Assembly: GCA_017610205.1 (NCBI GenBank)
Contig: JAFCCL010000009.1
Span: 1-64,000, forward strand
DNA length: 64,000 nucleotides
Reading direction: 5' to 3'
Origin: Candidatus Iainarchaeum sp.
GTDB lineage: Archaea; Iainarchaeota; Iainarchaeia; Iainarchaeales; GCA-2688035
Every line of letters begins with the position of its first letter. Within the stretch, counting starts at the first letter, position 1. The notes below the pieces were generated by a model that worked only from the letters and a program-made list of their open reading frames with translations, searched no databases and had not been told where the DNA came from. The position numbers and the translations under genes are program-made. Shown here in pieces: positions 3,932-40,153 of this stretch.

Positions 3932-6900
3932 ATGGCTTTGGGTGACTTTTACAAGGGAATTGAAGACAAGTACTATAATTTTGTTGACTGGCTTGACGGC
4001 AAGGGCTTAAACTTTTATCCGGTAATTGACAAAATTGAAGAGCACAATATTCCGTCGTTTCCAATTGCTGTTTTGGCACTTGTTCTAATAATTGCAGGAA
4101 TTGCAATTGGCATTAGCATGCTTGTAATTCCGCAAACAGGAATTACTTTTGCTGTTTTGGACGAAGACGGAATTGCTGTTGAAGGTGCACAAATTCTTGT
4201 TACAACAAATTCAGGCATAGAGCTTGGTGGCGTTACAGGAGTTGATGGAAGGGTAACAATTGTTATTCCGGCAGGAAGTGCTGAGGCTGAAATTTCAAAA
4301 GAAGGTTATGCAAACGAAATTGTTTCACTTGAAGTTTTGGGCATGACAGAGGAAGAGGTCTTGCTTAAAAGCGAAACCACGGTTTTGTCAAAAACAATTC
4401 AGCTTATGAAAAGCGGCACAAGCCAGCTTTTGGATGAGGACATTTCAGTAAGGTTTACTTGTTCTGACCCAGAGGCATCAGGCTTTGATGAAATAAAGGT
4501 TTCAAGCGGGGGCACAATTGCTCTTGATGTTCCAGGCAATTGCGGTTCACTTATTGCAACTCCTTTAACAGGTTACAGTGCACCAAACGGAGTAATTAGT
4601 TTGCAGGAAACTGCACCACAGCTTTTCTTACAGGCAGTTGAATCAAATACCGGAACAGTAAATGTTTTTGTTGAAACAGAGGAAGGAGAAGCACTTGCAG
4701 GAATTACGGTTATTGTTTACAGCCAGGACGGAATACAAAAAGGAACAAGTTATACAAGCGCTGCAGGAACTGCGGTCTTTGAAAGTATTCCAACAGGTTC
4801 GTATTATGTTATTGTACATGATTCACAGGGACATTATGCAGGATATGACAGCAGCACAGAGGGAGTTTTAGGAATAAAGGAACTTGTAAAGGATGGCAGC
4901 GTTTCTTTTAATGCAGAGCTTTCAGAGGCAACTGTTGGAACAATAAAGGCAATTGTAAAGGACAGTTCAACAAGCCTTCCAATTGAAAACGCTGCTGTTT
5001 ATCTTAAGAAGAACAATGCAACTGTTGACACAGCGTACACTGATTCAGAGGGAGTTGTTGAATTTAATGTTGGAGAAAATGTTGAATACTGTTTGGAGGT
5101 TGATTCAGGCGTTTACCTTATTGCAATTGTGAATAATGTTAGGGCAAGCCAGTCTTTTAATGAAATTTATCTTGAGGCAGCAACAGCTGGCAATACACAG
5201 GTTTTAAAGGTTGAAGTTGTTGACAACAGGCAGAAGCCAATTGATGGCGTTAGGCTTGTTTTGAAAAAGGCTGATGGGACAATTTATGCAAACAATGTTG
5301 TTACAGGAGCTGATGGAGTTGGCGAATTTACAAACCTTCCTTTGGAAACATACTATGTTTATGTTGTAAAAAAAGGTTTTGAGGGCAGGGACAGTGACCC
5401 AATAACACTTAGGTCAAGGCAGGAAAACAAAATAACGGTTGTTCTGCCAATTGGCTTTGGAAATTTAGAGGTATTGGTTTTGAATGACGAGTTGCAGCCA
5501 GTGCAGGGAGCGGTTATTGAGGCAATCAATGTTGTTGACGAAGAAAAGGAACAGGAAGCAATTACTGACCTTGATGGAAAGGCAATTTTTAATTTCAGGG
5601 CTGATAAAAAGGTTTTCTTTAAGGTTGATGCAGAAGAGTTTTTGCCATATTATAGCATTGCAGTAATGCCTGATGCAGACAGCACTGTGACAACAGAGAT
5701 ATTGCTTGCAAAAGACCCAGGGCAGGTAGAGGTAAAGCTTGTTGGAATGTATCTTGACGGAGAGGTTGCTCCAAAAGAGCTTGCTCCTGGACAAAAGTAT
5801 ACTGCAAGGCTTTTACTGCTTTTGCCAAAAAACAGCTATTTTGATGAAGCAGGATTGCATTTAAGAGTTGGAAATGCCAATGAAGGCAAGACAAATATTA
5901 TGGAGGAGGACAGTGTTTACATCAGGAATGTTATTGCGTCAACTGCAGGCATTTTGAGAGGAACAAGCTTTACTCCTCCAAGCGGTTATGCCATTGATTC
6001 AACACACCTTACAACAGGGGATAGCAAGTGGGCAAGCCTTGGTTGGAGTAATGCAGGGCAGGGAGCTTATGCTGTTGAAGCAGAAATTCAGGTAAAGGAT
6101 TCTGCACAACTTGGACAATTGTTGTATATTAATTACAGGGGATTTGGAAAGAAAGACACTTATACAAGATTCCCTGCAGACTCTGCACTTGGAGGAGCTG
6201 AGTCAACGGCTTCAAAGCAGGCGCTTTATGCAAATACAGAGCAGGAGGTTTATACTGCTGGCCCAAGCAGCCTTTGCGGAACCAGCTTTTGCAAGACTTT
6301 TGGAGTTGAGGACATTGTGCGCAATTTGAAGGTAGATGTGATTGACCAGTACAATGGAACTATTGGAACTGTTTACAGGCTGCATTTTACAATTACAAGC
6401 ATTGCAGAACAGGCGTTTACAAACAGCACTATTGAATTCGGAAGCCAGGGAGACGGCTTGAGGTTTGAAGATTATGCAATAACTGATGCCACAGGAAAAA
6501 GAAGCGAGGGCAGTGTTGAAGGATACTTGCTTTCAAAGGAAATTGGAACCATGAGCAAGGGAAGCAGTGTATTTGGGTTTGTTGATTTTAGAACGGAGAA
6601 AGAAGGAAGCAATCCGTTTACAATTGTAATAAAGTCAAACAGCCAGCCTGTTTTAAGCGAGGGAATTGACATAAGTGTTGAGGCAGCAGAGCAATTGCAG
6701 CTTGACGTTTTGCCAAAGGAAATAATTCCAATGATTGACAATCAGATTCTTGTAAGGGTAAGCGACGAAAGCGATGAGCCTGTAAGCAATGCAATTGTTA
6801 CTGCAACAATTGATGACGCAATAGTTGTTTCAACCGAAAGCAATGGCTTAGGAGTGATTGAGTTTAAGCTTGAGATGCCTGTTTCAGGAAGCGTGCTTGT

Positions 6901-9900
6901 GATTACTGCTGAAAAGACAGGGTATAAGGGAGCAGAGCTTGAGGAAAAAATTGACTCAAGCATTTTGACTGTTACACCGCCTGAAATAAATGAAAAGCTT
7001 GATGTTTTGCTGACAGAGGTTGAAAAGCAGATTTGGTTCAACAACCAGACTGTAACAGATTTGGTGATTTCAAAGCTAACGTTCAGCAGCGACTTTGAAG
7101 GCCTTGTTTCTTTTGAGTGGGATGAGGATTATATTGGTGAAGGAATTAATGCTGATACAGACATGAATGTGTTCCTGTTGATTGGATTAACAGAACAGGG
7201 AACTCTTGTGGAAACACCTGTAAAGTTGGAGGGTTCTTTGTCAATTTATTTGCTTAGTGCAGAATTGCAGGAAACCTTTGTGGAAAATTTGCCCATAGAA
7301 ATAAGAATAGGGCTTGGAGGAGAAGCAGACAGTGACGATTGCATTGAAATTGTTCCGGTAAAGTGGGATATTACAACATCTGCAGACGGAGCAATAACTG
7401 AAGAATTTTCAATAAAGAACAATTGTACTGTTGAAAATCAGGAAATTGCCCTTTCAAAACTTGAAGCCAAAGTAATTAATGGAAGCAGCGATTCACTTGG
7501 CCAGTTCAAAATAAGCAGTGATGATTTGGAAATTTCTTCAATAGTAATTGGAGAAGAATACACTTCACTTGCAGACCTGTTGCCGGTTGGGTTTGAAGGA
7601 GAACTTCAGATAGAATTTGTTCCAACTTCAACAATTGAATCAGGAACAGCAAAGCCAAAAATTGAATTCAAGGCAGTGCATCCAATAGTTGAAGGCGAGG
7701 AAAAAATTTCAGTAAAGCTTCCTGTTGAAATAAGTGTAAGCAATCTTGAAAAATGCATTGAGGTTATTGCAGACGAACCAATTGAGGTTGAAACAACTCC
7801 AATGAACACCGGATTTGGACAGTATGGAAATTATGGCGGAAGCTATAATCCAGGTTATCAGGGCGGTTACGGTGGCTACGGAGGATACAGCAGCATTCCA
7901 GGAGTTGGTGGAGGATATAGCAATTCTGGTTACGGGGGAATGACAGGCGGTTACGGAGGAAGCAGTTATGGCAGAAGCAGTGGTTATTATGGCGGAAGTG
8001 CATATCCTTACTCTAATTTTAGTTCACCTTATTACACAAACTATTATGATACTGACCATGATAATTCCTGGAAATACGGCCTTGGAGAAAACAGTTTTAT
8101 TGTCAAAAACAATTGTTCAGAGGCAGTTGAAATAGACATTGATGTTCCTGCACAAATCAGGGTAGACGAAGAAAATTTTGAGATTTTGCCAAATTCAGAT
8201 ACTAGAGTAAGGGTTGAATCAGGATACAGAATGGGCAAATATGAAGTTGATATTATGGCAAAAAGAAAAGGAAGCCTTGATAAGGCTTTGAAAATTGAGT
8301 CACTTGACGTTATTGTAAGAAGAGCAGGAGAAATGGACGAGGAATGCCTTCAGCTTAGCACAAACAAAATAAAGCTCAACAATTTTATAGGCAAGCCAGT
8401 AAAAACAGAAATATACAATTACTGTTATGATGTAGGAGTAAGGCTTCCAAGCGGCGGCAATATAATAGACTTTACCTGCAAGGTTGCAGGACAGCCGCAG
8501 AACACTTACAGGTTTGAAGGAAAAGAGGAAACAACTGCTTACTTCCAATACCAACAGTATGGCTACAATGACCCTTTTGCACAGCCAAGCTCTTACATAA
8601 ATCAGCCTCCTGGAAACTATGGGGGGGAAACTTTCCTTCCAACAGGGCCTTATGGCCCAAGCTATGGAAATGCCATTAGTTCAAGCCAGGGATACAATTA
8701 CCCTTATGGAAGCAGCCCTTACGGCAGCAACAACTGGGCTCAAAACCAGGTTGGAGGCTACACAGGCAGGTGTGAATTGATTGACTCTGTTTACGTTACA
8801 GATGAACACACAAGCGGAATGGACGATGGAAAAACAATCCAGACAGTAGAATTTGAAATAAAGCCTGCGTTAAATTATAGAAAAATGTTATGCGAATTCC
8901 AGGGCCAGATGCCGTTTCAAAGCATTTTTGGACTAAGAGTAATGCTAAGCCAGGCTTATTACAGGGTTTATGTTGATGCCTCAGCAAATGTCAAATACTA
9001 CAATCCGTTTGGAAGTGCAACAAACAAGTATTTCCACGTGACTTTGGAGGATATGTGGGGAATTGGCGACACACTTGACGAATGCATGCGCAATGCAGGC
9101 ATTGCAGGAATATCTGCCCAAAGGCTTCAAAAATGCAGGGAAGCAGGAAGCACTGCACCAATAATCTCGGTTGTGAATACCGCTGGTCTTGATTTTTCAA
9201 GAAAAGGATACCAAAAAGGCTTTGTTCCACAGGGCTTGTTTAATGCAAATGATGTTTATGAATATACTGCAGACCCTGATGTTTTGAATATTCCACCTGC
9301 TTCAGGAAAGGCAAGCATTGTTGAAATAATTCCGCGCGAAATAGTGCACGAAAGCGGTGTAAGAATTTCGTTTGAGACAGTTAAAACAGAGTGTCCTGCA
9401 CCATACCCTGGGGGAAATTGGACAATTAAAATGAACATTGACAGGTCAGGCATGGATGAAAGCATTGGCTGTGCAATAATTAACAACCAAATTGCCATAA
9501 AGGTTTCAAGGCCAATGTTTTGGGAAAGCCCAAAAGAAACAATTTTACCGGTAAGAGTTAACGTGCTTAACAGAAATGAAAGCATAGACAGTGTAGACCC
9601 AACCACCTGCAGCACGCCGGGTTCGATTACACCAACAAGTGTAAGGTGTGCAGCAGGCGGAGTATCAGGAAAAGGAACTAATGAAAAGTATGGCTTTGAC
9701 AGGCTTCCGTTTGACTGGATCTGGAACGGAATTGACATACAGCAATGTGATGAAAAAACAAACGGCGGAAAGGAAAGCTTTTGTGACGGAGTACAGTTCT
9801 CAATTGAATTGAACAAAAAGGCAGAAAAAGTAAAAGAGTTTGTCACAGAAAACAAGGCAATTATTGACGATTACGCAGAATTCACAGGCGTTGCAAAGGA

Positions 9901-11806
9901 GTCAAAAAATCTTTACAGGCTTGTAAAAAAGCAGATAAAGGTAAAAAGCCAGCCAATCGGAGTTGCAGATGACAAGGCAGTTGAAACAATATTCTACTTA
10001 AAGGCAGACAATGAAATTCTTGAAACTGAAAACAAGAAAAGCATAACAGACAAGCTCAAGAACCTTAAGAGCATGACCAAAGACGTAACTGAAAATAACA
10101 TGTATTCCATTGCAACACAAACTGTTAAGACACTAAATGCCATTTCATCGGAAGACAGGAAAAGGACTGTTGCAGTTGTAAGCAAAAGCTTTGCAGAAGA
10201 TTCAGAAAATGAGGATGTTGCTGAATTTGTTGGAGTAAGCAAGCCCGCAACCGGAGAAGGAGCAGTGTTTGACAAATATGTTTTTACACTTGACGAATAC
10301 AAAGCGTTTAATGAAAAGCTGGTTGACGCGCTTGGAACTCAGGGCAAATGCTCTAAGTACAATGAAGATGGAGTGTTAGAGGAAATTGATGTTACAGACG
10401 ACGATGACAAAAAGCTTGCTGTTATGTGTGAAATTACAGGCGGTGAACAGTCAGGTGGCGGGGCAAAAGAGGAATTTGTAAGCAACATTTTCCTTCAAAA
10501 CCTGTCCAATGCAATTAAGGCAGGTGGATTTATTGTAGGAGCAGTTTCAGAAGAAGGAAATGAAAATGACGGCGTTAAATATATAGTTAGCAATGCAAAA
10601 GATGCAAGCGGCTTGAAAAAGGTTGGGGGCAACAGTGACTTTAAAGCCTTTTACAATAAGGATGTTGACTTTGTTTCATTCCTTATAAAAGACGGTTACA
10701 ACAGCAGTTTGAGAACAGACTTTACTGCATTTTATACAAACGAGTCATTTGGAGAAACATCTGTGTCAAAGGCAACTTTGGAGGAAACAAAATACGGAAC
10801 AGGAAACTGGAAATTTGGAAACATAGGGCAGGAAAGTAAGGAATCATATTCTTTGGGAACATCAGGCCAGTACAGGATTTTGCTTGGTTTAAACTTTGCT
10901 GATGAGGACAACCTTGAATGGAATATTGGTTTTGAAAGAGAAAAAGTTCTTAAAGAAATTAAACCAGAATTTGAAAACAATTACATGTTAAGCATGCCGT
11001 TTGACGGAGAAATAGGGCTTGCTGCAGGCAGCGGAAGGGACGGATACGGTGTTCTTTTAACAGGCAACAAAAGCATACTGCTTGAGTATGATAATGATAA
11101 CACAGCAAAAAAAGCAACAGAGATTACAAAGCCAGCAACGGAAAACACAGGCAGTGCATTTGAACAATACAGTTTGCAAACTTCCAACGCACTTTCAGTA
11201 ACAAATACAGGGGTTGTGTTTAAGGTTATTGGAAGCACAATAACAAGCAATCCTTCAAAGCCTGCAAGAGTAAATCTGGAGCTTAACAAAAGAAGCGGTG
11301 CAGGAAACGAAGGACTGGTATACAATTTGGTTGAAGGCGGTTTTGGTACAGGATTAATTGGAGACCTTAACCCATGGTTTGTATGGCAGGAAGGCGAAAA
11401 AACCTTTTCAGACCAGGTTCTTTCAAGACCAATTTCACAAACACTTTGCCGCGAAATTGGCACAGCCGGCTACCACGGGTTTGTACAGGAAATCGGAACA
11501 AAAACAAATTTTAAAGGCCTTGTAATTCTTCCGTTTGAAAAAGAATATGTACTGCAACTTATCTGCAATCAGGGAAGCATTGGAAGTGCAACTGCACTAA
11601 ATACTATTTCTGCAAATGCAGGGTGGAGAGCAGGCACAAGCAACCAGCTTACCCTTAACACAAACACCGACACTTACAGCAGCAGCCTTGAGTACTTTGT
11701 TGAAAGCATTGACAATGGAAAGATGTGTTTTACACCAGGGCAGAATGGAATTACCCTGAATTGGAACAAGGAATACCTGCTTTCAAATGTTGGCACAAAC
11801 CAGTGA
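3932..11806 (+). CDS. Giant membrane-anchored envelope protein 1 (2,624 aa)
   Basis: I chose the ATG at 3932 because MALGDFYKGIEDKYY then aligns with the starts of the two paralogues downstream. A cytoplasmic tag of about 42 residues is followed by one membrane segment (43-65). Next come at least five carboxypeptidase-regulatory/Ig-like repeats (about 70-580; pattern G..V.DxxGxAxF...Y.V.V...G), a domain shared with the paralogues (about 600-780; KWASLGWSNAG, YRGFG), and a further Ig-like repeat near 930-1015. Two Gly/Tyr-rich low-complexity stretches (about 1291-1384 and 1539-1611) are unique to this copy. The C-terminal third again matches the paralogues (DGVQFSIELNKKAEKVKEF, MPFDGEIG...GRDGYGV, final CFTP...NWNKE). 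It probably projects from the cell surface. Its function is unknown: adhesion, cell-cell contact or part of a secretion-like machine are all inference. Confidence 0.85.
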   Translation: MALGDFYKGIEDKYYNFVDWLDGKGLNFYPVIDKIEEHNIPSFPIAVLALVLIIAGIAIGISMLVIPQTGITFAVLDEDGIAVEGAQILVTTNSGIELGGVTGVDGRVTIVIPAGSAEAEISKEGYANEIVSLEVLGMTEEEVLLKSETTVLSKTIQLMKSGTSQLLDEDISVRFTCSDPEASGFDEIKVSSGGTIALDVPGNCGSLIATPLTGYSAPNGVISLQETAPQLFLQAVESNTGTVNVFVETEEGEALAGITVIVYSQDGIQKGTSYTSAAGTAVFESIPTGSYYVIVHDSQGHYAGYDSSTEGVLGIKELVKDGSVSFNAELSEATVGTIKAIVKDSSTSLPIENAAVYLKKNNATVDTAYTDSEGVVEFNVGENVEYCLEVDSGVYLIAIVNNVRASQSFNEIYLEAATAGNTQVLKVEVVDNRQKPIDGVRLVLKKADGTIYANNVVTGADGVGEFTNLPLETYYVYVVKKGFEGRDSDPITLRSRQENKITVVLPIGFGNLEVLVLNDELQPVQGAVIEAINVVDEEKEQEAITDLDGKAIFNFRADKKVFFKVDAEEFLPYYSIAVMPDADSTVTTEILLAKDPGQVEVKLVGMYLDGEVAPKELAPGQKYTARLLLLLPKNSYFDEAGLHLRVGNANEGKTNIMEEDSVYIRNVIASTAGILRGTSFTPPSGYAIDSTHLTTGDSKWASLGWSNAGQGAYAVEAEIQVKDSAQLGQLLYINYRGFGKKDTYTRFPADSALGGAESTASKQALYANTEQEVYTAGPSSLCGTSFCKTFGVEDIVRNLKVDVIDQYNGTIGTVYRLHFTITSIAEQAFTNSTIEFGSQGDGLRFEDYAITDATGKRSEGSVEGYLLSKEIGTMSKGSSVFGFVDFRTEKEGSNPFTIVIKSNSQPVLSEGIDISVEAAEQLQLDVLPKEIIPMIDNQILVRVSDESDEPVSNAIVTATIDDAIVVSTESNGLGVIEFKLEMPVSGSVLVITAEKTGYKGAELEEKIDSSILTVTPPEINEKLDVLLTEVEKQIWFNNQTVTDLVISKLTFSSDFEGLVSFEWDEDYIGEGINADTDMNVFLLIGLTEQGTLVETPVKLEGSLSIYLLSAELQETFVENLPIEIRIGLGGEADSDDCIEIVPVKWDITTSADGAITEEFSIKNNCTVENQEIALSKLEAKVINGSSDSLGQFKISSDDLEISSIVIGEEYTSLADLLPVGFEGELQIEFVPTSTIESGTAKPKIEFKAVHPIVEGEEKISVKLPVEISVSNLEKCIEVIADEPIEVETTPMNTGFGQYGNYGGSYNPGYQGGYGGYGGYSSIPGVGGGYSNSGYGGMTGGYGGSSYGRSSGYYGGSAYPYSNFSSPYYTNYYDTDHDNSWKYGLGENSFIVKNNCSEAVEIDIDVPAQIRVDEENFEILPNSDTRVRVESGYRMGKYEVDIMAKRKGSLDKALKIESLDVIVRRAGEMDEECLQLSTNKIKLNNFIGKPVKTEIYNYCYDVGVRLPSGGNIIDFTCKVAGQPQNTYRFEGKEETTAYFQYQQYGYNDPFAQPSSYINQPPGNYGGETFLPTGPYGPSYGNAISSSQGYNYPYGSSPYGSNNWAQNQVGGYTGRCELIDSVYVTDEHTSGMDDGKTIQTVEFEIKPALNYRKMLCEFQGQMPFQSIFGLRVMLSQAYYRVYVDASANVKYYNPFGSATNKYFHVTLEDMWGIGDTLDECMRNAGIAGISAQRLQKCREAGSTAPIISVVNTAGLDFSRKGYQKGFVPQGLFNANDVYEYTADPDVLNIPPASGKASIVEIIPREIVHESGVRISFETVKTECPAPYPGGNWTIKMNIDRSGMDESIGCAIINNQIAIKVSRPMFWESPKETILPVRVNVLNRNESIDSVDPTTCSTPGSITPTSVRCAAGGVSGKGTNEKYGFDRLPFDWIWNGIDIQQCDEKTNGGKESFCDGVQFSIELNKKAEKVKEFVTENKAIIDDYAEFTGVAKESKNLYRLVKKQIKVKSQPIGVADDKAVETIFYLKADNEILETENKKSITDKLKNLKSMTKDVTENNMYSIATQTVKTLNAISSEDRKRTVAVVSKSFAEDSENEDVAEFVGVSKPATGEGAVFDKYVFTLDEYKAFNEKLVDALGTQGKCSKYNEDGVLEEIDVTDDDDKKLAVMCEITGGEQSGGGAKEEFVSNIFLQNLSNAIKAGGFIVGAVSEEGNENDGVKYIVSNAKDASGLKKVGGNSDFKAFYNKDVDFVSFLIKDGYNSSLRTDFTAFYTNESFGETSVSKATLEETKYGTGNWKFGNIGQESKESYSLGTSGQYRILLGLNFADEDNLEWNIGFEREKVLKEIKPEFENNYMLSMPFDGEIGLAAGSGRDGYGVLLTGNKSILLEYDNDNTAKKATEITKPATENTGSAFEQYSLQTSNALSVTNTGVVFKVIGSTITSNPSKPARVNLELNKRSGAGNEGLVYNLVEGGFGTGLIGDLNPWFVWQEGEKTFSDQVLSRPISQTLCREIGTAGYHGFVQEIGTKTNFKGLVILPFEKEYVLQLICNQGSIGSATALNTISANAGWRAGTSNQLTLNTNTDTYSSSLEYFVESIDNGKMCFTPGQNGITLNWNKEYLLSNVGTNQ

Positions 11807-11880
11807 AAAAAAAATTCACTAAAACTTTTTTAAACAGTAAAAGGTGGCTAAATAGTAGCATATTTAGCAAAGCAAAGTAA

Positions 11881-11890
11881 TTTATATATA
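11881..11890 (+). promoter_or_regulatory. TATA-like box before giant protein 2
   Basis: TTTATATATA lies in the 212-bp gap between giant genes 1 and 2, about 130 nt before the ATG. It suggests that gene 2 may have its own promoter. Confidence 0.35.
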
Positions 11891-11946
11891 GAAAAGAAAT
11901 ATTCTAATAGCCTAAAAAAGTTTAAAGGCTTAAGCAGCAAACAGCA

Positions 11947-12055
11947 GGGGAAAAGCAAAACAGGCATTGAAAAAATTAGCAAAAGTTTGAAGGATTAAAT
12001 ATCAAGGGGAAAAGCAAAATGGGCATTGAAAAAATTAGCAAAAATTTGAAGGATT
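11947..12055 (+). repeat. Duplicated ribosome-binding and start region of giant gene 2
   Basis: A 50-bp segment starting GGGGAAAAGCAAAA and ending TTTGAAGGATT occurs at 11947-11996 and again at 12006-12055, 59 bp apart, with about three mismatches. The second copy holds the Shine-Dalgarno-like GGGGA and the ATG of giant gene 2. In the first copy the ATG is replaced by ACA, and its frame ends at once. Confidence 0.8.
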
Positions 12056-18000: not shown

Positions 18001-19173
18001 TTTGACGAATTCTGCAAAACCAAAAGCTTCTTTGACTGTCCTGAGTATTATACAGGCGAAGAAGGTTTGCAGCGCTTCTTTTCAGATTCTGAAAGGTTTG
18101 AATTTGACTATTCAATGGCACCACATGCAGCATTGGATGCAGGAAAGTATGCTGTAACAATAAATATAGAGTATGACAATGACAACTGGCAGCTCTTTGT
18201 TAACGGGCAGCCTGATGCAAAGATTGTAATTGAATTGACTGAGTTAAGCACTCCTGAACCAAACAGCCCGTTCTATTATCTGCCGTTTGACGGACTGGTG
18301 GGAATTGATTCAGAAAACGGAAGGCAGGGATATGGAGTAAATTTTAGGCAAACTTCAGAGGAAACAATAAAGATAAACAATTCTGCTTACCAGCCTGTTT
18401 TCACTACAAATATCGCAAACACTACGCCAATATTTAATGGATGGATTGATGCAGGATTTAGCAACAGCTTTGATATATTAAACATAGAAAACAGGGGAAT
18501 TCTTTTGGATGTTCAGGCAAAATCAGAGGCAACCTCAATTGTGCTTTCACCAAGCTATGCTACTCCAGTAATGATGGAGGTGGATTACAGTACAGGAAAT
18601 GATGCTTATGGATTTTACTCAATTGAAATTGACAACAGTCCACATACTGCTTCAACAAGAATGATTCCTTGGTCAGGTGTTGGAACAATATGCCGTGATT
18701 TTGAGGACAATCCGGTTACAGAAGCTTGGCAGGAAACATGGGATATTCATGGTGGAATTTCAGGCAATATTGAATGTGCAATTGGCACAGATATAACAGA
18801 TTATGGGGTTGAATGGTGCAATCCAATTAGGGTTGGAAAGACTTTCCTTCAAAGTGTTGTGTTTACGCCACAGGACAAAACCAGCCTTATGAAAAGGACA
18901 ATTTATTCAGATGGCATGACTTTGTACAATTCAGGCGAAAGCGGAAACCAGATTTCACTAAATGGTGTTCCTGGAATGGAAAACAACAGCTTTGGAACAA
19001 ACACAATTGACAGTTTGCAGGATATTTTTGACCTTGTTGAGGAAAATAAGGTTTGCCTTGTTGGACAGGGAAGCAGGATAAGCAATAAGTTTTTCTGGAA
19101 TCCGAAAGAGGTCCTTGAAGAAATTTCAACGCAGAGGGATATGGCGGATACGGAATGTATTACCTTAAATTAA
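12019..19173 (+). CDS. Giant membrane-anchored envelope protein 2 (2,384 aa)
   Basis: This is a paralogue of giants 1 and 3. The N-terminal tag contains DFYFGIEDKWYGLIDKID, IPVHGLVDRID and VPSFALF, followed by a membrane helix at about 48-68. Ig-like/carboxypeptidase-regulatory repeats run to about 620, then the shared domain (KWANLKWSAPSTG, FYRAFGEENG, AESVAGKAGLYA), and a repeat at about 930-1010. The variable central position (about 1423-1600) here holds a Gly-rich hydrophobic segment (IEDGLIYGLITGVIGGF; later FLGGIGKSVLGPP and LVIGSAIAYM). The C-terminal part has YCDATQFSIEILKKVQEL, FYYLPFDGLVGIDSENG and the terminal IFDLVEENKVCLVG...WNPKE. Many Cys residues suggest disulfides outside the cell. 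It is probably co-transcribed with giant 3, 48 bp downstream. Confidence 0.85.
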   Translation: MGIEKISKNLKDFYFGIEDKWYGLIDKIDTKIPVHGLVDRIDNVVPSFALFLVIIALIVLAIALPFLTAPTVLFSFKVTDVDDSPIENASVQVFLDGAEIFAGTTNENGESANARIEPGETINVSVSKDGFVEFEEEIEANESTYLYSIILRTLEANTYNILLKDGFGQPIREELSLSFTCRNTNASPPASIITSTGTATVVEPANCNGLIVSVQGEGFDFKSSIELVQTEQTIYLMETVEELANVTIELYYNNSLISENVTVYLYKDNGTVSGIGPVETEISQNGIAFFERPAGEYFAKTSGYGSFAVAESSVFTVVENELTTIRIDLEESVVGSIKVLIVDGVTGGEVEGARVALMRQGEEIDTKTSSDSPLEFPVAQDTTYTVIVDHKAYCLKSVHNITISESVQEIELTPVNEECGGTLETRVLDQSGNPVINATVGLYNSDGFSVGFGTRITDINGVVEFSRVPSGDYKAFAFKENSSGWSDSEHFVQRAAESTVLTVVLIAGDGTIRVKVSDKEGMPVQFAQVAFVDALTNIPIGGGSMPVQDVNGTVELTTRADKKIYIIASKDGFANFTSTIVPVVADSVQFIDAILEKEILQGEVEIEFKGMYRDNKRAKNIGPGEDYEALFELRIPANKNYDSIGMHVRTGDKETMELDKIVLKSINASGNVEIIKATSYGKNNGYAIDSEHISSGNAKWANLKWSAPSTGIVQVKAGIRVKETANLGDQLNLFYRAFGEENGNYKRDPVDLELGEAESVAGKAGLYASAKQEIFQLDIETICDESFCFSASILDEEDGLAYNANESFSGKVFRPYKFTFSVLNNSEFEENSYMDSEIKISNEDNALLLQEYTIYGAQNQKTQAVVQGKTTEWIETGDFLPNNSISGTIDFTPQKSEIGLLTIEARSGQRIRFTKTIAVSIASDNEMNVVVVPEILPSGIENTITITVKDSVTGAEINGALAKAKDRFGTVVDEKTTNSRGVAILSLPSLQPGEKISLIVGKPDYASFEKMLDVNPDVVKVAPSTIGVALNAKTITETQDDFTLENITSFGLAIKEMRLNGQLYGLIDEERVKNWLFTYDGETIGPGNVKELQLATFLSEKGKKLEKAKQLQAELEITTEALGNEWTIIVPVKISIGLGGEVDDPNCFVITKKEWKASTEGNPIEIEFEVQNNCSIGGAAVSLRNISARANWESNQTGTFSIRTPDNSMELRSGYSKTFSGLLGPEEKIPLVLEFSPNGGVNGKGIAAIIFKAENPTEHGAQELSNELMAEIVVVNLIDCISFDKEILRIKPEETDSFSVETNGCGVLNDIRLESEIAVSNENFTLGETDSREIEVLAEKNIPGQYPIKVYAKDSDQVREKLIKTIRVRILASGCIELSRYEFDVFDNPNDQYDGYDTVEVINHCYNKPVTAKVKFDEKDLMGAIEDGLIYGLITGVIGGFMSSDDVSPVTGKPITQKTIETVGEAVKTGTPQSVGISSIQMAQQAARTYGSPTSSNIREEYFILYYPDKTVTGEKSASGHWTINATSNRSQLPTGELPAPRPAPAPTGTFALGSGPTGFTPLFGGGEGFLGGIGKSVLGPPSFLGWGTQGLVIGSAIAYMNQDKGEFDFTTIQDDLVYKQTNLLMPGATLEEDSLVEVPSEDIIVRDLDETSTEPRHDNPQLSTEKRMLGFLNVGGVVQEDPATPLYRILKIEGERLGYETEYELDEEEYPELEVTERNKHVERFRLQFNSFDPMEEKQDLKPIANCQLGNVSGVTGPDAVPKVKFDWSWAAISEDNCDEGNEDYIYCDATQFSIEILKKVQELREFVEFNRPFDCPTSASAVAITEQELIETGGDVGITRIQANRVGTSDVNIVVMSESNNGKIMDAELMVYLKQGGSLVKSCTRQFSIVSKTIESCNLEGVAAGEYTIEAELVPALCEDCENNNAGNDLIEADFFLGETGVAECEPYNTKRLVNFLIAGNYSASQIEEIQKLINFNANLIEDAYTNDFRADFDEFCKTKSFFDCPEYYTGEEGLQRFFSDSERFEFDYSMAPHAALDAGKYAVTINIEYDNDNWQLFVNGQPDAKIVIELTELSTPEPNSPFYYLPFDGLVGIDSENGRQGYGVNFRQTSEETIKINNSAYQPVFTTNIANTTPIFNGWIDAGFSNSFDILNIENRGILLDVQAKSEATSIVLSPSYATPVMMEVDYSTGNDAYGFYSIEIDNSPHTASTRMIPWSGVGTICRDFEDNPVTEAWQETWDIHGGISGNIECAIGTDITDYGVEWCNPIRVGKTFLQSVVFTPQDKTSLMKRTIYSDGMTLYNSGESGNQISLNGVPGMENNSFGTNTIDSLQDIFDLVEENKVCLVGQGSRISNKFFWNPKEVLEEISTQRDMADTECITLN

Positions 19174-19177
19174 ATAA

Positions 19178-19238
19178 TTTTTTTACAAGTGATTTGAAAG
19201 AATTATTAATTTTTTTTTACAATGGGTTTGAAAGAATT
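19178..19238 (+). repeat. Short duplication spanning the start of giant gene 3
   Basis: A 27-bp segment beginning TTTTTTTACAA and ending TTTGAAAGAATT occurs at 19178-19204 and 19212-19238 with about three mismatches. The second copy contains the ATG of giant gene 3. The arrangement repeats what is seen before giant gene 2. Confidence 0.65.
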
Positions 19239-22200
19239 TTACTTAAAAGCAGAGGACAAGTGGTATGATGTTCTCGACAGGATAGATGCACACATACCTG
19301 TTTACAAAATTGTTGACAAAATAGATACAGCAGTACCAAGCTTTGCACTTTTTGTCGGAGTTGTTGTATTGCTTGCAGTTGCATTTGTTGTGCTTAATCT
19401 GAATTTTGCAGGAGGAGTAAGCCTTACTGTAACAATAGAGGATGCTGGCGGAAATTTGCTTGAAGGGGTTTCATTTGATTACACTGTTGGCAACAGCATT
19501 AATTCCGCAGTTACCAATAAGGATGGAAAGGCAGTTATTTTTGTTCCTGCAAATTCAACAGTTGAAATAATGGTTCCTGTGGCAAATGTTGACGGAGTTG
19601 TGTTTGAAGAGGCAAAGAAAACTATTTTTGTTGAAGATTTTGAAATATCTGAAAGTATTGTGTTAATGGAGGAAAGCCCTGCTTTTGTTGAAAGGACAAT
19701 TCTTTTCCAAAATGGTGCAGGTGAAAGGATTACCGGAAGGGCAATAAGGGTAAGGCTTAGCTGTGAAAACCCTTTGGTTTCCCCAAGCCCTCTTGAGGTA
19801 TCAGACCTTGACTTTGATGGAAGCATTACTGTAAAGGAGCCAAGGGATTGTGGAATATTCCAGGCAACTGTTTTGGAGCCTGAAGAATTCAGTCAAAAAA
19901 GATATATTTTAAATCAGGGAACGCAAACTCTGAGGCTTGAGGCATTGCCTGTTGCAAAAGGAACAGCCAGAATAAAAATAAAGGACTCTGGCGGAAATCT
20001 TGTGCTTTCAAACAATTTTAATGTAAAGCTTTTGGATTCAGATGGGCTTAAGGCAGCTGAAAAATATTCACAAAATTATGGAGAAGTTATTTTTTCAAAT
20101 ATTACGGCAGGAATTTATAGCGTTGTTGTAGAGGATGTTTCAGGAGATTATGGAATTGCAAACCAGTCAGGAATTAGTGTAAGCGTTGATGAAATCACAT
20201 CTGTTAATGTTACTGTAGGCAAAAGCATAAAGGTTACTCTTAATGTTTCGGTTGTTGAAAAGGAAACAGGAAATGAAATTACAGGCGTGACTTTGAAAGT
20301 AATTGATTTGGATGGCAAAACAATTGCGGAAAAAAGCACTGGTGAAGAAAACACCACTGTATTCAGGCTTACTGAAGACACAGGCCATCAGTTGTTTGCA
20401 GTGCACAATGATTACCTTTATGAAATTGTTAATTTGCCAAGTGCAGGAACATTGGATATTGAAGTTGAAATGGAAAAGATTACGGCTTCAAACAGCGGAA
20501 GGGTGGAAGTTAAAGTTGTTGACGAGGACAATTTTCCTGTAAAAAATGCAAGGGTTAAGCTTCGTTTTTTGGATACTGGAATGCTTGTTCCAATTGAGCC
20601 TGAAATGACTGACAGCAATGGTTTTGCAGGTTTTGCAGGAGTAAAGTCAGGGAGTTATTATGCTTATGTTGAAAAATATCCTGCTTCAGGCGACAACCAA
20701 AGTCAGGGAATGGAAATTGACATAAGGACTGTTACAAAATTCACAGTGGTAATGATTATTGGTGACAGTGTTGTACAGGTAAATGCATTTGATGAAGACT
20801 TATTGCCTGTTGCAGAGGCCGAAGCCGAATTTTTTGCCCTTTCAGGAGAAAGTTTGGGAAAGATTCCTTTAACTGACGGCACAGGGCAGTTTGACCTTAA
20901 GGCAGACAAAATGGTTTTTGTGGTTGTAACCCATTCCGATTTTATGGCTATTCAGGCAATGCCAAAACAGCTTTGGCCAAATGAAATTATACATTTTGAT
21001 GCTTTAATGGAACCAAAGCTTATTCTTGGAGAGCCAGAGCTTGAATTTGCCGGAATTTTTGACGAAACAGGAATTCAGGTTCAGGAAATGAATGCAGGAA
21101 AACGGTATATTGCAAAATTCAAGCTAAGCATTCCGGAAAGCGGGGATTATGGCAATGGAGGCATTCATTTTAGGGTAGGTGACGAGCGATTTTTGATAAA
21201 TGACCCCCTTGTAATAAAGGAAGCTGTTGCAGGCGGTATTGAAGAGCAGTTAAAGGGAACATCCTATAGCCCCCCAGCAGGCTATGATGAAGACCTGCAA
21301 AATGTTACTGTAGGGGATGCAAAATGGGCTAATATATTCTGGAACCAGCTTGAGCCAATGAATTATTATGTTGGCTTTGAAGTAAGGGTAAAAAGCCAGA
21401 TTACGCCTTATACAAGGCTTCCAATGCATTACAGGGCATGGGCTGTTAATGGAAGCAGGCAGTATATTAGAACCCCTGAGGATTCAGAGCTTGGGTTTTC
21501 TGAAAGCGTGTCAGGAAAGCAAAGCCTTTATGCAAAGACAAGGGATATTGCATTTTTGGAGGGACAGGCAGCAGAATGCCAGGAAGACTTTTGCTACAGT
21601 GGGGAAAGCATTCTTGATGAGGACCTTGGATTGTATATTTATAAACCATATGAGATGAGGGCAGGCAGTCCGCACAATTACACTTTCAGCATACTAAACA
21701 ACAGCGAACGCCAATACAGCAATAGCGAATTATACATAACTGTTGATGGGATTACTATTGATTCTTACGCAATACAAAATGCTTCAGCGCAGGAAATAAG
21801 CAATGTTGGAATTTCAACCAAAGAAATTGAGGCAATTAATTTAGGCACTTTTACAAAGGGCAAAAGTGTTTCAGGAAATGTTCATTTTACGCCAAACACA
21901 ATCGGGCTTGGAGAAATTGAGGTAAAGGTTATTGCCGACGGACGGGTTGTATTTCAAAAAAGCATTTTTGCCTCAATCCTTTCGGAAAACGAGATGGTTA
22001 TTGCAGCAAGCCCTGCGCATATTCCGTCATATGTTGCAACAGCGCTTGAAATTTCAATTTATGACCCGGTATATGAGTATGATATTGACGAGGCATTTGT
22101 AAGGGTTAATGTGAAAAATCCTGACAAGACAGAATTGTTTTACACTGCAACAACAAACGGTTTTGGAAAAGCAATAATTGATTTGCCTGCACTTGACCCA

Positions 22201-25200
22201 AGAACTGTTATAATTATTGAGGCTGAAAAGCCGGATTATTTTGCAAACCCTTTGGAGCTTGTTGTGGACTCAAATATACTTCGCTTTGAGCCCCCAAAAG
22301 TAGAGACCTTAATGGAAACAAGGGGGGCACGGGAACAGCTTTTTAATGAAAGGATTGAAAACACAACCGGCCTTGAAGTTGAAATCAAAAATGTTTCGCT
22401 TACAGGAAGGTTTAATGGGTTGCTTGACAGGCAAACAATGGAAAATTACTCAAAGCAGTTTATTGGAACAAAAATAAAAGCAAACGATTATGAAACATTT
22501 CAATTCTTTAAAACAAGGCTTTCAGAAAACATTGAATCAATTGCCCTTGGAAATGAAACATTATACGGCGAATATATTGTTACCTCGTACAATGAAGAAA
22601 CAGGAATTGAGTGGGATACAATTATTCCGTTGGAAGTTGCAATAAAAATAAGCAACTTGCCAGACAATGCACCCTGCATTGTAATCACAAGGCAGGAATG
22701 GTTAGGTTCAACACAGGAAAACAGGTCAACAATTGAATTCCAGGTTCAAAACAACTGCATTACTGGCGGGAGAGCGTCAGAACTTGACAGCCTTCAGGCA
22801 AAACTTTCATGGAATTCTGACATAATGGGCCAGGTTGAATTAAGCTTAACAGACCCTGAAAGCGGGCAAACCAATACCGAAACATTGAAGCCTGAAATGC
22901 GGACAAAAATCATTTCAGGGATAAGACCTGAAAGCACATTTTACGGAATGCTTACATTTACTCCAATGTCAGGATTTTTGGGAAAGGACGCAGTATTCTC
23001 AGTTGGCATTGACGGAGCAATCAAAACAAGTGCAGGGAAATCATTTGTAGGCTCAACACCAAACGAGATTTCATCAAGCATTAGAATAATTAACTTAAAT
23101 CAGTGCATACAATACCCTGGAGCAGAAGACATAATTGAAATGTCTGGAGACACAGCAAACTTTACTGTTGACACAAGCCAGTGCGGAGAGATTTCAATTG
23201 ACATAGAATTGTGCCAAAACGACACTGAATGCAGGAGCGGAACATCAGAGGGAGGCATTACAGTAACACCAACACAGTTTACTCTTAATGCAACTAATCC
23301 GGCAAAGGAAGTGCTTGTTGCAAGGCAAAGTATGGCAGGAATGTATGGAATTCATGTTTCGGCAAAAACACCTGGAAAAAGCTATAGAAAAGTTGCTTTA
23401 ATAGATGTACTTGTAAAGCCAGAGGGAGATGAGACATTTACTTTGGACAAATATGCATTTACTTTGGTGGGCACAGGAAGCCAGGACAACGCAACCCTTA
23501 CAAACAAGGATTTGGCAGAAACAATCAGTGTTGATGCAAGTGCATGTGACTGGGGAACAGCAGAAGAGAAAGGAATGTTTGATTTGGCAGGAGCAGGAAT
23601 GGGCGCGGCAGTAGGAGCAATAGTGGGAATGCAAAATGCAGCAAAGGCAACAAGTGCAGCAAGCCAGGCAATAAGTCTTGCAAGAACCGGGAATTTGACA
23701 GGCGCGGAAAGTGCGGTTAGCCACGCAAACCAGTTAACAAACGCTGCAAGCACAGCTGGAGACGCAGCACAACTTGCATCACAAACAGCCAGACAGGAAG
23801 CAATAACCACTGCAGCTGCTGCTACAAAAGCAGCTTTAACTGCAACAAATGCAATACTTCCACCTTGCGGAACAGCTGTTAAGGCAACTGTTATAGCTGC
23901 CAACAGCAAAATGGCAAGCGTTGAAACAACAGCCAATGGAACTTTTTGGGCAAAGGTTGGAAGAGCACTAAGCACTGTTGGACGAGGGGTTTCAAACATT
24001 GGCAGCGCTGTTGCAAGTGTTGGAAAGGCAAAAAATACAGCCACGCCAAGCAGTACAGGAATGGTAAGCGAGGGACCTTACAACTCGCAGGCAGACCTTG
24101 ACAACGCTATTAGTAGTACAGAATCGGCGTCTGCAGACTTGACTGAAACAGGAACAGAGTGGGGTACAAGCCTTACAGAGTCACAGGCAATGGCTGCCGA
24201 GCTTAAAGTTATTGTAGGAGAACTTGGAACAGCACAGGCTGAAATGGCTGAAGCACATACATGCTGTGGTTTTTGCAGCCCTGGACCGTGTTGCATTGCA
24301 CAAAGCACTGCAGCAGATATAGCTATAGAGGATGCTATAATTACTGTGGACAATGCAGTTGTAGCTGTAGAAGCTGCATCGGCAGAAATAACAGGCGCAC
24401 AAACTGCAGCAAATAATGCAGCTTCAGGTTTGACAACTGCAAACCAGTCTCTTGTACAGGCAAAAAGCTCAATGGGCAGTCTTGGAAATACCATGGCTAC
24501 AGCAGGAAAGGCAGCAGGGTCAGGAGGCACTAATTGGGGAACTCTTGGAACTTATGCTGCTTTGGGAGCTGTTGCAGGCGGTTTGTTGGGAGGAGTTATG
24601 GGAGAGGATCCATGCGCTCAAAGAGTTACCGGAAGCCTGATGGATTATATGATTAATTTGAAGGATGATGCACAGCCAATTTCTGTTGACAATGAACTTA
24701 TTTCAGGATGGTGGAATACTGATGACGCAAAGGTCTTTGGCAATTACAGCAGCCAGGAAGTAGGGCTTTACTTTGAGAACATGGGTTTGGAGGAAAGCAA
24801 TGCCATTTACGGTGTTGTAAGCCTTCCTGCTGAAAGGCATTATCATGCAAATCCTACAATGGCTTCAGGGTCAGGATTTGGGCCGTTTAATGTTCCAGAC
24901 CAAAGCCAGGAAAGTTATGCTCAAAAATTCCATTTGAAGTTTGTTACATCGCCGTCAACATCAAAAATTGAGCTTTTGCCACAGGAAACATACAGTTGTT
25001 TGCAGGGAAGCCTGTTTGGACAAACAGGAGCAGGAGCATTGCCTGATGTAAAACTCAACTGGAGTTGGGGTGAAACAACAGGAATTGCAATGGATGACTG
25101 TGATTACTATAATGAAAATGGAATTTACTGTGATGCAACCCAGTTTAGCATTGCATTGACAAAGAAAATGCAGAGTTTAAGGGAATTCCTTGAAGCAAAT

Positions 25201-26703
25201 CAGCAGATTTCATGCCCTGTAAATCCATCACTAACAGACATTGAAGAAATTACAGAAGAATTCCATGCAGAACTTGAAGAACTTGGAATGGACCCATTGC
25301 AGTTGTATTATCCAGGCTGCTGGATGCCTTTGTCTACAACGCTTTGGGATGGACAGCCGGTATTGCTTTACTTTGTGGAGGAGGCGGCTGAAAACAATAA
25401 TGTGAACTGGACAAGCAATGTACAGGATTTGGGAGATTTGAAGAATTTAATAAGCTTTAAAGCAAGGCTGATAAAAGACGGTTATAGTGAAGACTTCCAG
25501 AATGACTTTGCAGAATTTTACACAACACAATCATTTTACGATTCTCCAAATTACTTTGGAGAAGATGGTGCAGGAAAGTGGTCTGATTACTTTGAAGATA
25601 CTGAAAATTTAAGGTTTAAGCAGAAGTTTGTTGAAAATACTTCTTTGCCTGATGCAGGAGTTTACAATGTTCTTGTAAATGCAGGCTTTAACTCAGAAAA
25701 CTGGGAGTTCTTTGATGCAGACGGAAACCCTGATGCAGTGGTTGTTGTTGAATTCCTGTTTCTTGGTGAGCCATACCCTAACAGTGTGTTTTATTACCTT
25801 CCGTTTAATGGAAATGTTGGTGTTGATTCAGGAAATGGAAGAAATGGCTATGGTGTAGATTATGTAAACAGTGCAGAGCCAATTGCAATTGCAAGCAGTC
25901 CTGAAATGGTTTCAACAAGGGAAATTTACGGAAGCAATCCTGTTGCAGAAGCCAATATTGAGGTTGTTTCGGATTTTAAGACAATTAATTCCATTGCTTC
26001 AAAGCGTGGGTTTTTGCTTGAATTAGAGGGCTCTGATTTGGCTACTGTAAAAAACATTTCGTTCTATCCAAATTATGCCACTCCTGTAATTATGAAGATT
26101 CCGCATGAAAAAACAAATGAAAGCTTTAGTGCATTTTATGAAATAAAGGAAAGCCAGACACCTGTTGAGGCAGGTACAAGCCTTAGCTTTTGGACAGGAG
26201 CAGGGCAATGCCTTGATTTTTCAGGCCAGCCTGTTTATGAGGCATTTAGATTTAAGCCAGACAGGTCAGCAACACAAAATGACCCTCTTTCAGATTGGCT
26301 GTTTGCATATGCAACAGACTGGGACAGTGCAATTTTTGAAGGAGATGTTTACCTCAAAGCAGTGTTTTATTCACCTATTACAGGAAACTTTAACCTTAAG
26401 TCATTGCAGCCGTCTGGACTGCAGTTTATTTCACCTGATTCGCTTGAATCCAATTCCGTTGATTTGCACGGAATTGCAGGAATGCAGCATAACAGTGGTA
26501 GTGCACAGGATATTGTAAGCGAAGTTCAGGAAATTTTTGACTTGGTTGAAGGCCAGAATGTTTGCGTTACAGACACTGGTTCAAAAACCTCGTTTTGGTG
26601 GAATCCAAAGGCTTTGAATGATGCTGTTGGAAGCAAAACAAGCATTTCAAACTTTGAGTCAAATCTTGTTGAAGGAAGCACCTGTATAGGGTATGGAAGC
26701 TAA
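19222..26703 (+). CDS. Giant membrane-anchored envelope protein 3 (2,493 aa)
   Basis: The third paralogue has the tag MGLKEFYLKAEDKWYDVLDR, then IPVYKIVDKID and a membrane helix at about 41-60. Ig-like repeats and the shared domain (KWANIFWNQLEP, MHYRAWAVNG, SVSGKQSLYAKT) follow. The variable insert (about 1452-1796) is an Ala/Gly/Ser/Thr-rich helical stretch of about 340 residues with glycine-zipper-like ends (AGAGMGAAVGAIVGM and LGAVAGGLLGGVMG). It is interrupted by a Cys cluster (CCGFCSPGPCC at 1681-1691). The C-terminal region matches giant 2 closely (YCDATQFSIALTKKMQSLREF, YYLPFNGNVGVDSGNGRNGYG, IFDLVEGQNVCV...WWNPK). The function is unknown; the insert looks membrane-active or assembly-prone. 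Confidence 0.85.
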   Translation: MGLKEFYLKAEDKWYDVLDRIDAHIPVYKIVDKIDTAVPSFALFVGVVVLLAVAFVVLNLNFAGGVSLTVTIEDAGGNLLEGVSFDYTVGNSINSAVTNKDGKAVIFVPANSTVEIMVPVANVDGVVFEEAKKTIFVEDFEISESIVLMEESPAFVERTILFQNGAGERITGRAIRVRLSCENPLVSPSPLEVSDLDFDGSITVKEPRDCGIFQATVLEPEEFSQKRYILNQGTQTLRLEALPVAKGTARIKIKDSGGNLVLSNNFNVKLLDSDGLKAAEKYSQNYGEVIFSNITAGIYSVVVEDVSGDYGIANQSGISVSVDEITSVNVTVGKSIKVTLNVSVVEKETGNEITGVTLKVIDLDGKTIAEKSTGEENTTVFRLTEDTGHQLFAVHNDYLYEIVNLPSAGTLDIEVEMEKITASNSGRVEVKVVDEDNFPVKNARVKLRFLDTGMLVPIEPEMTDSNGFAGFAGVKSGSYYAYVEKYPASGDNQSQGMEIDIRTVTKFTVVMIIGDSVVQVNAFDEDLLPVAEAEAEFFALSGESLGKIPLTDGTGQFDLKADKMVFVVVTHSDFMAIQAMPKQLWPNEIIHFDALMEPKLILGEPELEFAGIFDETGIQVQEMNAGKRYIAKFKLSIPESGDYGNGGIHFRVGDERFLINDPLVIKEAVAGGIEEQLKGTSYSPPAGYDEDLQNVTVGDAKWANIFWNQLEPMNYYVGFEVRVKSQITPYTRLPMHYRAWAVNGSRQYIRTPEDSELGFSESVSGKQSLYAKTRDIAFLEGQAAECQEDFCYSGESILDEDLGLYIYKPYEMRAGSPHNYTFSILNNSERQYSNSELYITVDGITIDSYAIQNASAQEISNVGISTKEIEAINLGTFTKGKSVSGNVHFTPNTIGLGEIEVKVIADGRVVFQKSIFASILSENEMVIAASPAHIPSYVATALEISIYDPVYEYDIDEAFVRVNVKNPDKTELFYTATTNGFGKAIIDLPALDPRTVIIIEAEKPDYFANPLELVVDSNILRFEPPKVETLMETRGAREQLFNERIENTTGLEVEIKNVSLTGRFNGLLDRQTMENYSKQFIGTKIKANDYETFQFFKTRLSENIESIALGNETLYGEYIVTSYNEETGIEWDTIIPLEVAIKISNLPDNAPCIVITRQEWLGSTQENRSTIEFQVQNNCITGGRASELDSLQAKLSWNSDIMGQVELSLTDPESGQTNTETLKPEMRTKIISGIRPESTFYGMLTFTPMSGFLGKDAVFSVGIDGAIKTSAGKSFVGSTPNEISSSIRIINLNQCIQYPGAEDIIEMSGDTANFTVDTSQCGEISIDIELCQNDTECRSGTSEGGITVTPTQFTLNATNPAKEVLVARQSMAGMYGIHVSAKTPGKSYRKVALIDVLVKPEGDETFTLDKYAFTLVGTGSQDNATLTNKDLAETISVDASACDWGTAEEKGMFDLAGAGMGAAVGAIVGMQNAAKATSAASQAISLARTGNLTGAESAVSHANQLTNAASTAGDAAQLASQTARQEAITTAAAATKAALTATNAILPPCGTAVKATVIAANSKMASVETTANGTFWAKVGRALSTVGRGVSNIGSAVASVGKAKNTATPSSTGMVSEGPYNSQADLDNAISSTESASADLTETGTEWGTSLTESQAMAAELKVIVGELGTAQAEMAEAHTCCGFCSPGPCCIAQSTAADIAIEDAIITVDNAVVAVEAASAEITGAQTAANNAASGLTTANQSLVQAKSSMGSLGNTMATAGKAAGSGGTNWGTLGTYAALGAVAGGLLGGVMGEDPCAQRVTGSLMDYMINLKDDAQPISVDNELISGWWNTDDAKVFGNYSSQEVGLYFENMGLEESNAIYGVVSLPAERHYHANPTMASGSGFGPFNVPDQSQESYAQKFHLKFVTSPSTSKIELLPQETYSCLQGSLFGQTGAGALPDVKLNWSWGETTGIAMDDCDYYNENGIYCDATQFSIALTKKMQSLREFLEANQQISCPVNPSLTDIEEITEEFHAELEELGMDPLQLYYPGCWMPLSTTLWDGQPVLLYFVEEAAENNNVNWTSNVQDLGDLKNLISFKARLIKDGYSEDFQNDFAEFYTTQSFYDSPNYFGEDGAGKWSDYFEDTENLRFKQKFVENTSLPDAGVYNVLVNAGFNSENWEFFDADGNPDAVVVVEFLFLGEPYPNSVFYYLPFNGNVGVDSGNGRNGYGVDYVNSAEPIAIASSPEMVSTREIYGSNPVAEANIEVVSDFKTINSIASKRGFLLELEGSDLATVKNISFYPNYATPVIMKIPHEKTNESFSAFYEIKESQTPVEAGTSLSFWTGAGQCLDFSGQPVYEAFRFKPDRSATQNDPLSDWLFAYATDWDSAIFEGDVYLKAVFYSPITGNFNLKSLQPSGLQFISPDSLESNSVDLHGIAGMQHNSGSAQDIVSEVQEIFDLVEGQNVCVTDTGSKTSFWWNPKALNDAVGSKTSISNFESNLVEGSTCIGYGS

Positions 26704-26751: not shown

Positions 26752-27168
26752 ATGGTCTTTGAAATAATGCCACTAATGTTTGCTTTGCTTTCAATAGGCG
26801 AATTTTTTTCAGACATGGTTTTTGTGCTTAAAATATTTGTGCTGTTAACCATTATTTCGTGGGTTATAATGCATTTGGGAAAAGGGCCTTTGGCAATTGT
26901 TTTAATTGTTGGAATTTCGTGGTTTGTGTTGTTTGATGCCTTTTGGTTTTTTGGAGGAACATATGTTTTGATGATGCTTTTGACTCTTGGTATTGCAGGC
27001 ATTTTCATAGATTTGTTCTTTGTATTCCCAGGGTTTGCTGCAGGAGCAGGAGGTTCAGGCGGTCTTCCTGCTGAGGCAAAGATGAGCAGCCAGGGTGGGG
27101 TAAACCAGAGAATGCAGGCTTTCAAAGCAAAACCAGGCAGAGCCAGAAAGCTTCCTCCGCCAATGTAG
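26752..27168 (+). CDS. Small membrane protein A of the giant locus (138 aa)
   Basis: I do not recognise the family. Four hydrophobic segments fill residues about 1-100 (MVFEIMPLMFALLSI, FVLKIFVLLTIISWVI, LAIVLIVGISWFVLFDAFWF, VLMMLLTLGIAGIFIDLFFVF). A Gly/Ala-rich then basic, Pro-rich tail follows (GAGGSGGLPAE ... KPGRARKLPPPM), probably cytoplasmic. It starts 48 bp after giant gene 3 and leads a run of five small membrane proteins on the same strand, so it is likely part of one operon or functional unit with the giants. Confidence 0.72.
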   Translation: MVFEIMPLMFALLSIGEFFSDMVFVLKIFVLLTIISWVIMHLGKGPLAIVLIVGISWFVLFDAFWFFGGTYVLMMLLTLGIAGIFIDLFFVFPGFAAGAGGSGGLPAEAKMSSQGGVNQRMQAFKAKPGRARKLPPPM

Positions 27169-27186: not shown

Positions 27187-27558
27187 ATGGGATTGTGTGT
27201 AAAGATGTTTGGAAACAGGTTTTTGGAATTAAATCAGCAGGGAATGCTGCAGATTTTTATTTTGATTGTAATAGCTCTGGTGGTTGTTGTTACAATTCCT
27301 GTTCTGGTAATGAAAGTTTTTCCTGCAGCAGATTGGATTATGCGAATTATTCTTATTTTCTTAATTTTTACAACAGTAAGAGGCTACTTGGGGTCGGGAA
27401 TTCCAACAATTCTTGTAACAGGTGTTTTGATATATTTTCTGGTAATTAAGTGGGCATACTTTACTGCCGCCGTATATATTGCGGTTTATTTCCTGCTTGC
27501 ATTGCAGGTGTTCAGCATAATTATTTTTGGAATTGGAATGGGAATGAGAAAAGGGTAA
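27187..27558 (+). CDS. Small membrane protein B of the giant locus (123 aa)
   Basis: This hydrophobic protein has about four membrane segments after a short polar N-terminus (MGLCVKMFGNRFLELNQQG), including MLQIFILIVIALVVVVTIP, a central stretch around MRIILIFLIFTTV, and two C-terminal helices ending GIGMGMRKG. There is no recognisable motif. It lies 18 bp after protein A. The initiation codon could also be the internal ATG at residue 7. Confidence 0.68.
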   Translation: MGLCVKMFGNRFLELNQQGMLQIFILIVIALVVVVTIPVLVMKVFPAADWIMRIILIFLIFTTVRGYLGSGIPTILVTGVLIYFLVIKWAYFTAAVYIAVYFLLALQVFSIIIFGIGMGMRKG

Positions 27559-29273: not shown

Positions 29274-29359
29274 ACAAAGGGGTATTCTTTTATTTCACTT
29301 ATACTATAGTTATACTGCTTTAAATAACTTAGTTTCAAATAAAAGCATTGGTAATTCTT

Positions 29360-40120: not shown

Positions 40121-40153
40121 ACCGTCTAGGAAAAAATACTATATTCTTTGTTT

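Follow-up and report, generated by a model that had tools for sequence, protein, structure and literature searches.

Giant paralogous surface proteins encoded next to a type IV pilus-like gene cluster in Diapherotrites/Iainarchaeota

In archaeal type IV pilus systems, one locus encodes a secretion ATPase, a platform protein and class III pilins along with large surface proteins that are Cys-containing or DUF2341/PilY-like (Makarova et al. 2016, PMC4858521). The locus of Candidatus Iainarchaeum sp. studied here, on a window of 64,000 nucleotides (the whole stretch of DNA analysed) and on further contigs of the same genome, resembles them in its components, of which the platform protein and the pilins are candidates. 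It differs in its four paralogous giants (A, B, C and E), which bear a cytoplasmic tag and a membrane span at the N-terminus, and in a unique C-terminal module; DUF2341, the domain of PilY1-like tip adhesins, was absent among the Pfam matches of A, B, C and E. The SPEARE proteins of Nanohaloarchaeota are likewise DPANN surface proteins of great length that contain adhesion domains; they are furnished with protease and cytoplasmic restriction-enzyme domains and mostly a C-terminal membrane span (PMC6642349). The giants differ from them in forming a conserved multi-gene set, and Pfam matched neither a SPEARE-type protease nor a type III restriction-enzyme domain in A, B, C or E. Giant1-5 of Apilactobacillus kunkeei are also encoded by consecutive giant extracellular-protein genes, which occupy several percent of a small genome, but these bacterial proteins are built of beta-solenoid domains, are younger and recombine, whereas the giants presented here are Ig-like, archaeal, ancient and vertically inherited (PMC12863079). 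CARDB, carboxypeptidase-regulatory and Big_1 Ig-like domains, matched by the repeats of the giants and by parts of the C-terminal half of B, are generic building blocks, unlike the complete C-terminal module of C. No previous description of these proteins was found in the open-access papers searched.

Three giants are encoded one after the other on the forward strand of the window: A (3932..11806, about 2,624 aa, ATG start at position 3932), B (12019..19173, 2,384 aa) and C (19222..26703, 2,493 aa), with intergenic gaps of 212 bp (A-B) and 48 bp (B-C). A sequence-only reading had taken them for duplicated envelope proteins on a common chassis, and this chassis was recovered in all three reading frames: a cytoplasmic tag of 35-55 residues with the motif FYxxxEDKxY...VDxID, one hydrophobic stretch near residues 40-67, and repeated Ig-like domains matched by Pfam to CarboxypepD_reg/Big_1/SpaA. 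Each protein further contains a C-terminal module and a central insert, which is Gly/Tyr-rich in A, flanked by two glycine-rich helices in B, and in C Ala-rich in the middle with a Gly/Ala-rich helix at each end. The motifs KWAxxxW, YCDATQFSI, PFDGxxG...GRxGYG and WNPK were present in all three proteins, in weaker form in A (FCDGVQFSI). BLASTP aligned A and B with 28% identity over 1,333 aa (E 2e-123), A and C with 25% over 1,255 aa (E 2e-85) and B and C with 30% over 1,451 aa (E 2e-137). Paralogy is evident both in roughly 1,300 N-terminal residues and in the C-terminal module, where profile-profile comparison gave E-values of 5e-45 (A-B), 3e-43 (A-C) and 4e-123 (B-C), so that all pairs are significantly similar outside the Ig-like repeats. 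The membrane anchors are plain and lack class III pilin signals, and a C-terminal hydrophobic span, as in an archaeosortase-type sorting signal, was found in none of A, B and C. Together with the N-terminal anchor and the tandem conservation throughout the order, the paralogy strongly backs the view of duplicated envelope proteins. Codon usage of the giants leaned towards that of ribosomal genes in six of seven genomes (the reverse in G032); the bias was moderate and suggests a fair expression in these six, yet codon usage cannot separate a pilus-associated complex from an S-layer. Upstream of A, between this gene and a divergent SHMT gene, a 21-bp TTCAAATTCAATTGTTTGAAA-like repeat occurs three times (3725-3785); the copies are possibly regulatory sites. 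Immediately 5' of B, a stretch of 51 bp comprising the ribosome-binding region and the start of the gene is tandemly duplicated with 94% identity (11946-12055).

The C-terminal module covers, on the forward strand, positions 9638..11803 in A (CDGVQFS at aa 1953), 16861..19170 in B (CDATQFSI with the conserved Cys, aa 1789) and 24604..26700 in C (CDATQFSI at aa 1970). Structure models were obtained for B (aa 1375-2384; pLDDT 76.8, pTM 0.55) and for C of the complete genome GW2011_AR10 (AR10; pLDDT 81.9, pTM 0.81). Foldseek aligned the B model only in part, to Ig/CARDB domains and multidomain enzymes, and a PDB profile search with the C-terminus of B yielded a chance match (E 0.92). No PDB structure matched the AR10 C model at E 0.001, the best hit having 0.14; judged from this model, the whole module of C appears to be new. 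A relation to thioester proteins of the alpha-2-macroglobulin type was considered and rejected: CDAxQ (CDATQ) spaces Cys and Gln four residues apart instead of three as in CxEQ, and several further conserved Cys lie close by. The bMG3/MG4 Pfam matches of the giants fall on the Ig-like repeats.

Unrelated inserts at about the same relative position had been described in the three proteins, and this was true in part. The insert of B (16279..16857, forward strand, aa 1421-1613) consists of a helix (1421-1443), a disordered linker and a second helix (1584-1601) between two beta strands, and the helix pair of the C insert (23575..24603, forward strand, aa 1452-1794) is placed between the equivalent strands in the predicted models. 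The common position is thus confirmed for B and C, which share one inter-strand site, and their inserts cannot be called unrelated, as both start and end with a Gly/Ala-rich helix. The main insert of A (7790..8065, forward strand, aa 1289-1380 of the TTG-started ORF) sits one Ig-like domain upstream of this site; it is Gly/Tyr/Ser/Asn-rich and charge-poor, and was recovered in 19/19 A orthologues as a Tyr/Gly/Asn/Gln/Ser/Pro-rich segment with 0-14% charged residues. A second, Tyr/Gly/Pro/Gln-rich insert of A (8543..8764, forward strand, aa 1540-1613) lies near the B/C insertion point and has 71-85 aa in the family of the window, mostly under 25 aa elsewhere. The glycine-rich helices at both ends of the B insert are conserved and weakly hydrophobic, at a total length ranging from 106 to 1,010 residues. 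In family f17 (G033, G044) the B insert has 618-805 aa with 9-10% Cys; it is Cys-poor in the other families. In most families the C insert is a short hydrophobic hairpin, Ala/Gly-rich and 43-78 residues long; G022 lacks it, and in the family of the window it has grown to 341-404 residues. A segment of transmembrane-grade hydrophobicity was detected at this place in 12 of 16 C proteins, a few weaker ones occurring elsewhere in the ectodomains of A to C; in most families the C helices make up a hairpin of membrane-grade hydrophobicity. The window's own C falls slightly below the threshold used. In the C model the hairpin region is of low confidence, so that no geometry can be read from it, and the topology of the hairpins is a prediction. 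The proposed Cys knot of C exists as CCGFCSPGPCC, restricted to the family of the window. Since the segment of A and the hairpin of C are conserved within their orthologue groups, they are segment-specific specialisations; the idea of one diversified segment for each giant holds in part, B and C having the insertion site and the helix pair in common and the B insert varying widely in length.

Homologues occurred mostly in tandem rather than as isolated single genes, with A, B and C contiguous and identically ordered in 15 genomes from nine families. The usual upstream neighbours of A are a gene for a pilin-like protein, c1, and the fourth giant, E, in an order E-c1-A-B-C conserved across families. 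In the genome of the window, contig C12 harbours E, c1 and an archaeosortase-family gene, and a fifth paralogue, D, is also encoded off the window contig. The set is therefore not a triad, as first read, but comprises the four giants E, A, B and C plus D. The c1 protein has a pilin-like N-terminus without E5 and weakly resembles ComGF (E 0.002 to 0.07); a PDB profile search with it returned no match. Downstream of C follow, on the forward strand, genes for the small multi-spanning membrane proteins c2 (26752..27168, 138 aa, 48 bp 3' of C, in 15 genomes of the set) and c6 (27187..27558, 123 aa, 18 bp 3' of c2, in 12 genomes) and for the small membrane protein c9 (28063..28371, 102 aa, a conserved neighbour in nine genomes). 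Further on lie c3, c4, c7, PolB and an M24 peptidase; c4 (29348-30862) is HerA-like (PDB profile E 0.0025) with an apparently degenerate P-loop. In the sister-family genome G086, two tagged giants and a c1-like gene were retained, along with c3, c4, c7, PolB and M24 downstream. Exceptions were members relocated in G026 and in the genus of G012/G016, and B was split in G026 and G020. The window also encodes a 1,044-aa protein with a PKD domain, a signal-like N-terminus and an internal membrane span at about residue 644 (34843-37977); comparison with the neighbour clusters of the other loci revealed no equivalent of it. A tRNA-Arg is directly followed by a tyrosine recombinase gene (40153-41465), with a possible integrated element to about 46 kb.

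A search for secretion ATPases identified a 760-aa protein cluster adjoining the cassette as T2SSE ATPase (E 7.6e-17 in AR10). In AR10 the cluster runs from minor-pilin-like genes through two KGQ-type pilins, the putative platform, ATPase and archaeosortase to E, c1, A, c11, B and C. The pilins were recognised by the KGQAF...LLIAAIVA motif alone, with no Pfam match, and the platform candidate of 785 aa had a T2SSF match of E 2.7e-5 and 24.6 bits, just under the Pfam cut-off of 25.2; its homologue in the genome of the window had no T2SSF match. A gene of the exosortase/archaeosortase family (TIGR04178) is encoded near the giants, and a prepilin peptidase gene (peptidase A24) directly 3' of D. 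Among the matches listed for ATPase and N-terminal tag, inspection by eye revealed at least 25 genomes in which the ATPase and a tagged giant lie no more than about 20 kb apart on a single contig, G086 of the sister families included. The ATPase family was present in 87/87 genomes, though weaker matches may be other pilus ATPases, and G020 is a clear exception with an ATPase far from the giants. In the genome of the window, the candidate pilins and platform and the ATPase are on the separate 9.3-kb contig C4, the end of which would fit the start of C12. The pilus ATPase of this genome (G000:C4, L190:4227-8048) carries an intein (PF14890, E 4.5e-24, LAGLIDADG). The ATPase match is split near the same site in G016, G026, G039, G038, G041 and G052, suggesting inteins there too.

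The homologues came from genomes labelled Candidatus Diapherotrites/Iainarchaeum, AR10 among them; a few bins labelled Chloroflexi, Thaumarchaeota, Falkowbacteria or Micrarchaeota were taken for mislabelled. The C-terminal module was present in 72/75 genomes of the order of the window and in 0/12 genomes of sister families of the same class. The N-terminal tag is more widespread (81/87 genomes, 11/12 of the sister families, in giant ORFs where checked) and marks exactly five proteins in the genome of the window: A, B, C, D and E. Tagged giants without the B/C-type module in the sister families point to a stepwise build-up. Phylogenetic analysis of 74 proteins resolved a single clade for each of A, B, C and E, as it did with the N-terminal chassis alone, with the placement of D and of the sister-family giants unsure owing to long branches. 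The single clades of A, B and C and the same gene order in 15 genomes indicate that the duplications predate the order; A, B and C are members of an ancient group that comprises at least four giants. Extra dispersed copies, namely a duplicated C and D, were present in several genomes. A phage or viral origin was rejected, as tblastn found no match in phage records and none was confirmed in IMG/VR.

With moderate confidence we propose that Diapherotrites/Iainarchaeota possess a dedicated type IV pilus-like apparatus, the extracellular and membrane-anchored part of which is formed by A, B, C and E and is likely adhesive. Each giant would be held by its one N-terminal membrane span, with the conserved cytoplasmic tag facing a partner common to all of them (the small membrane proteins c2/c6 and the pilus platform are candidates) and the Ig-like chassis reaching outward. 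The C-terminal modules of A, B and C would pack against one another, while the Tyr/Gly-rich segment of A and the helix pairs of B and C may contact other surfaces or membranes, from which adhesion or the holding of a partner surface follows as the likeliest role. Adhesion is also suggested by analogy with the large proteins of archaeal pilus loci (PMC4858521). Co-assembly of the giants, which we infer from the gene order over nine families, the congruent clades and the shared pilus-type locus, would go beyond the 1:1:1 unit proposed before, as E, the pilin-like protein and the pilus-like motor also belong to it; the conserved synteny is compatible with co-regulation as well. A rich metabolism and a possibly free-living mode of life have been described for these archaea (PMC8561730), thus a host is not assured.

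The giants might instead constitute the principal coat of the cell, in the form of a surface scaffold or S-layer of several subunits, anchored by N-terminal membrane spans, with which the pilus system is merely co-localised. The near-universal C-terminal module, the raised codon adaptation in 6/7 genomes, the multi-Ig-domain architecture and the vertical inheritance throughout the order are in line with this reading. We nevertheless regard it as unlikely: the codon bias is only moderate, B/C-type modules are missing from the sister families, and the linkage to pilus ATPase and putative platform and pilins is consistent in at least 25 genomes, including a sister family. This linkage, the anchors and the conservation favour a pilus-associated surface complex. 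A kept order E-c1-A-B-C and single clades without turnover argue for a fixed set and make it improbable that the giants are independent adhesins of differing specificity, held together only by tandem duplication and shared expression, in spite of the differing inserts of the paralogues and the dispersed extra copies of C and D. A contact-dependent channel or membrane-docking complex, in which the hairpins of B and C enter the membrane of a partner cell and A adheres, could make use of the hydrophobic helical hairpin at one C site in most families, the Gly-zipper helix pair of B and the widely varying linker lengths. It is given little credence, however, as the B helices are weakly hydrophobic, the Cys-rich B linkers of family f17 suggest an oxidising, outside location, and no effector or channel gene was found. 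That the pilus-associated complex represents an undescribed machine, a pilus-like motor with a fixed hetero-complex of four giants, two of them with extracellular, membrane-insertable helix pairs, ancestral to the entire order, is a tentative and rather doubtful extension.

For Diapherotrites, a near-universal syntenic set of four giants tied to one pilus ATPase offers a specific target for studying how these archaea meet surfaces or cells. The N-terminal tag serves as a diagnostic marker for such proteins, and the apparently new C-terminal module is a subject for structural work.
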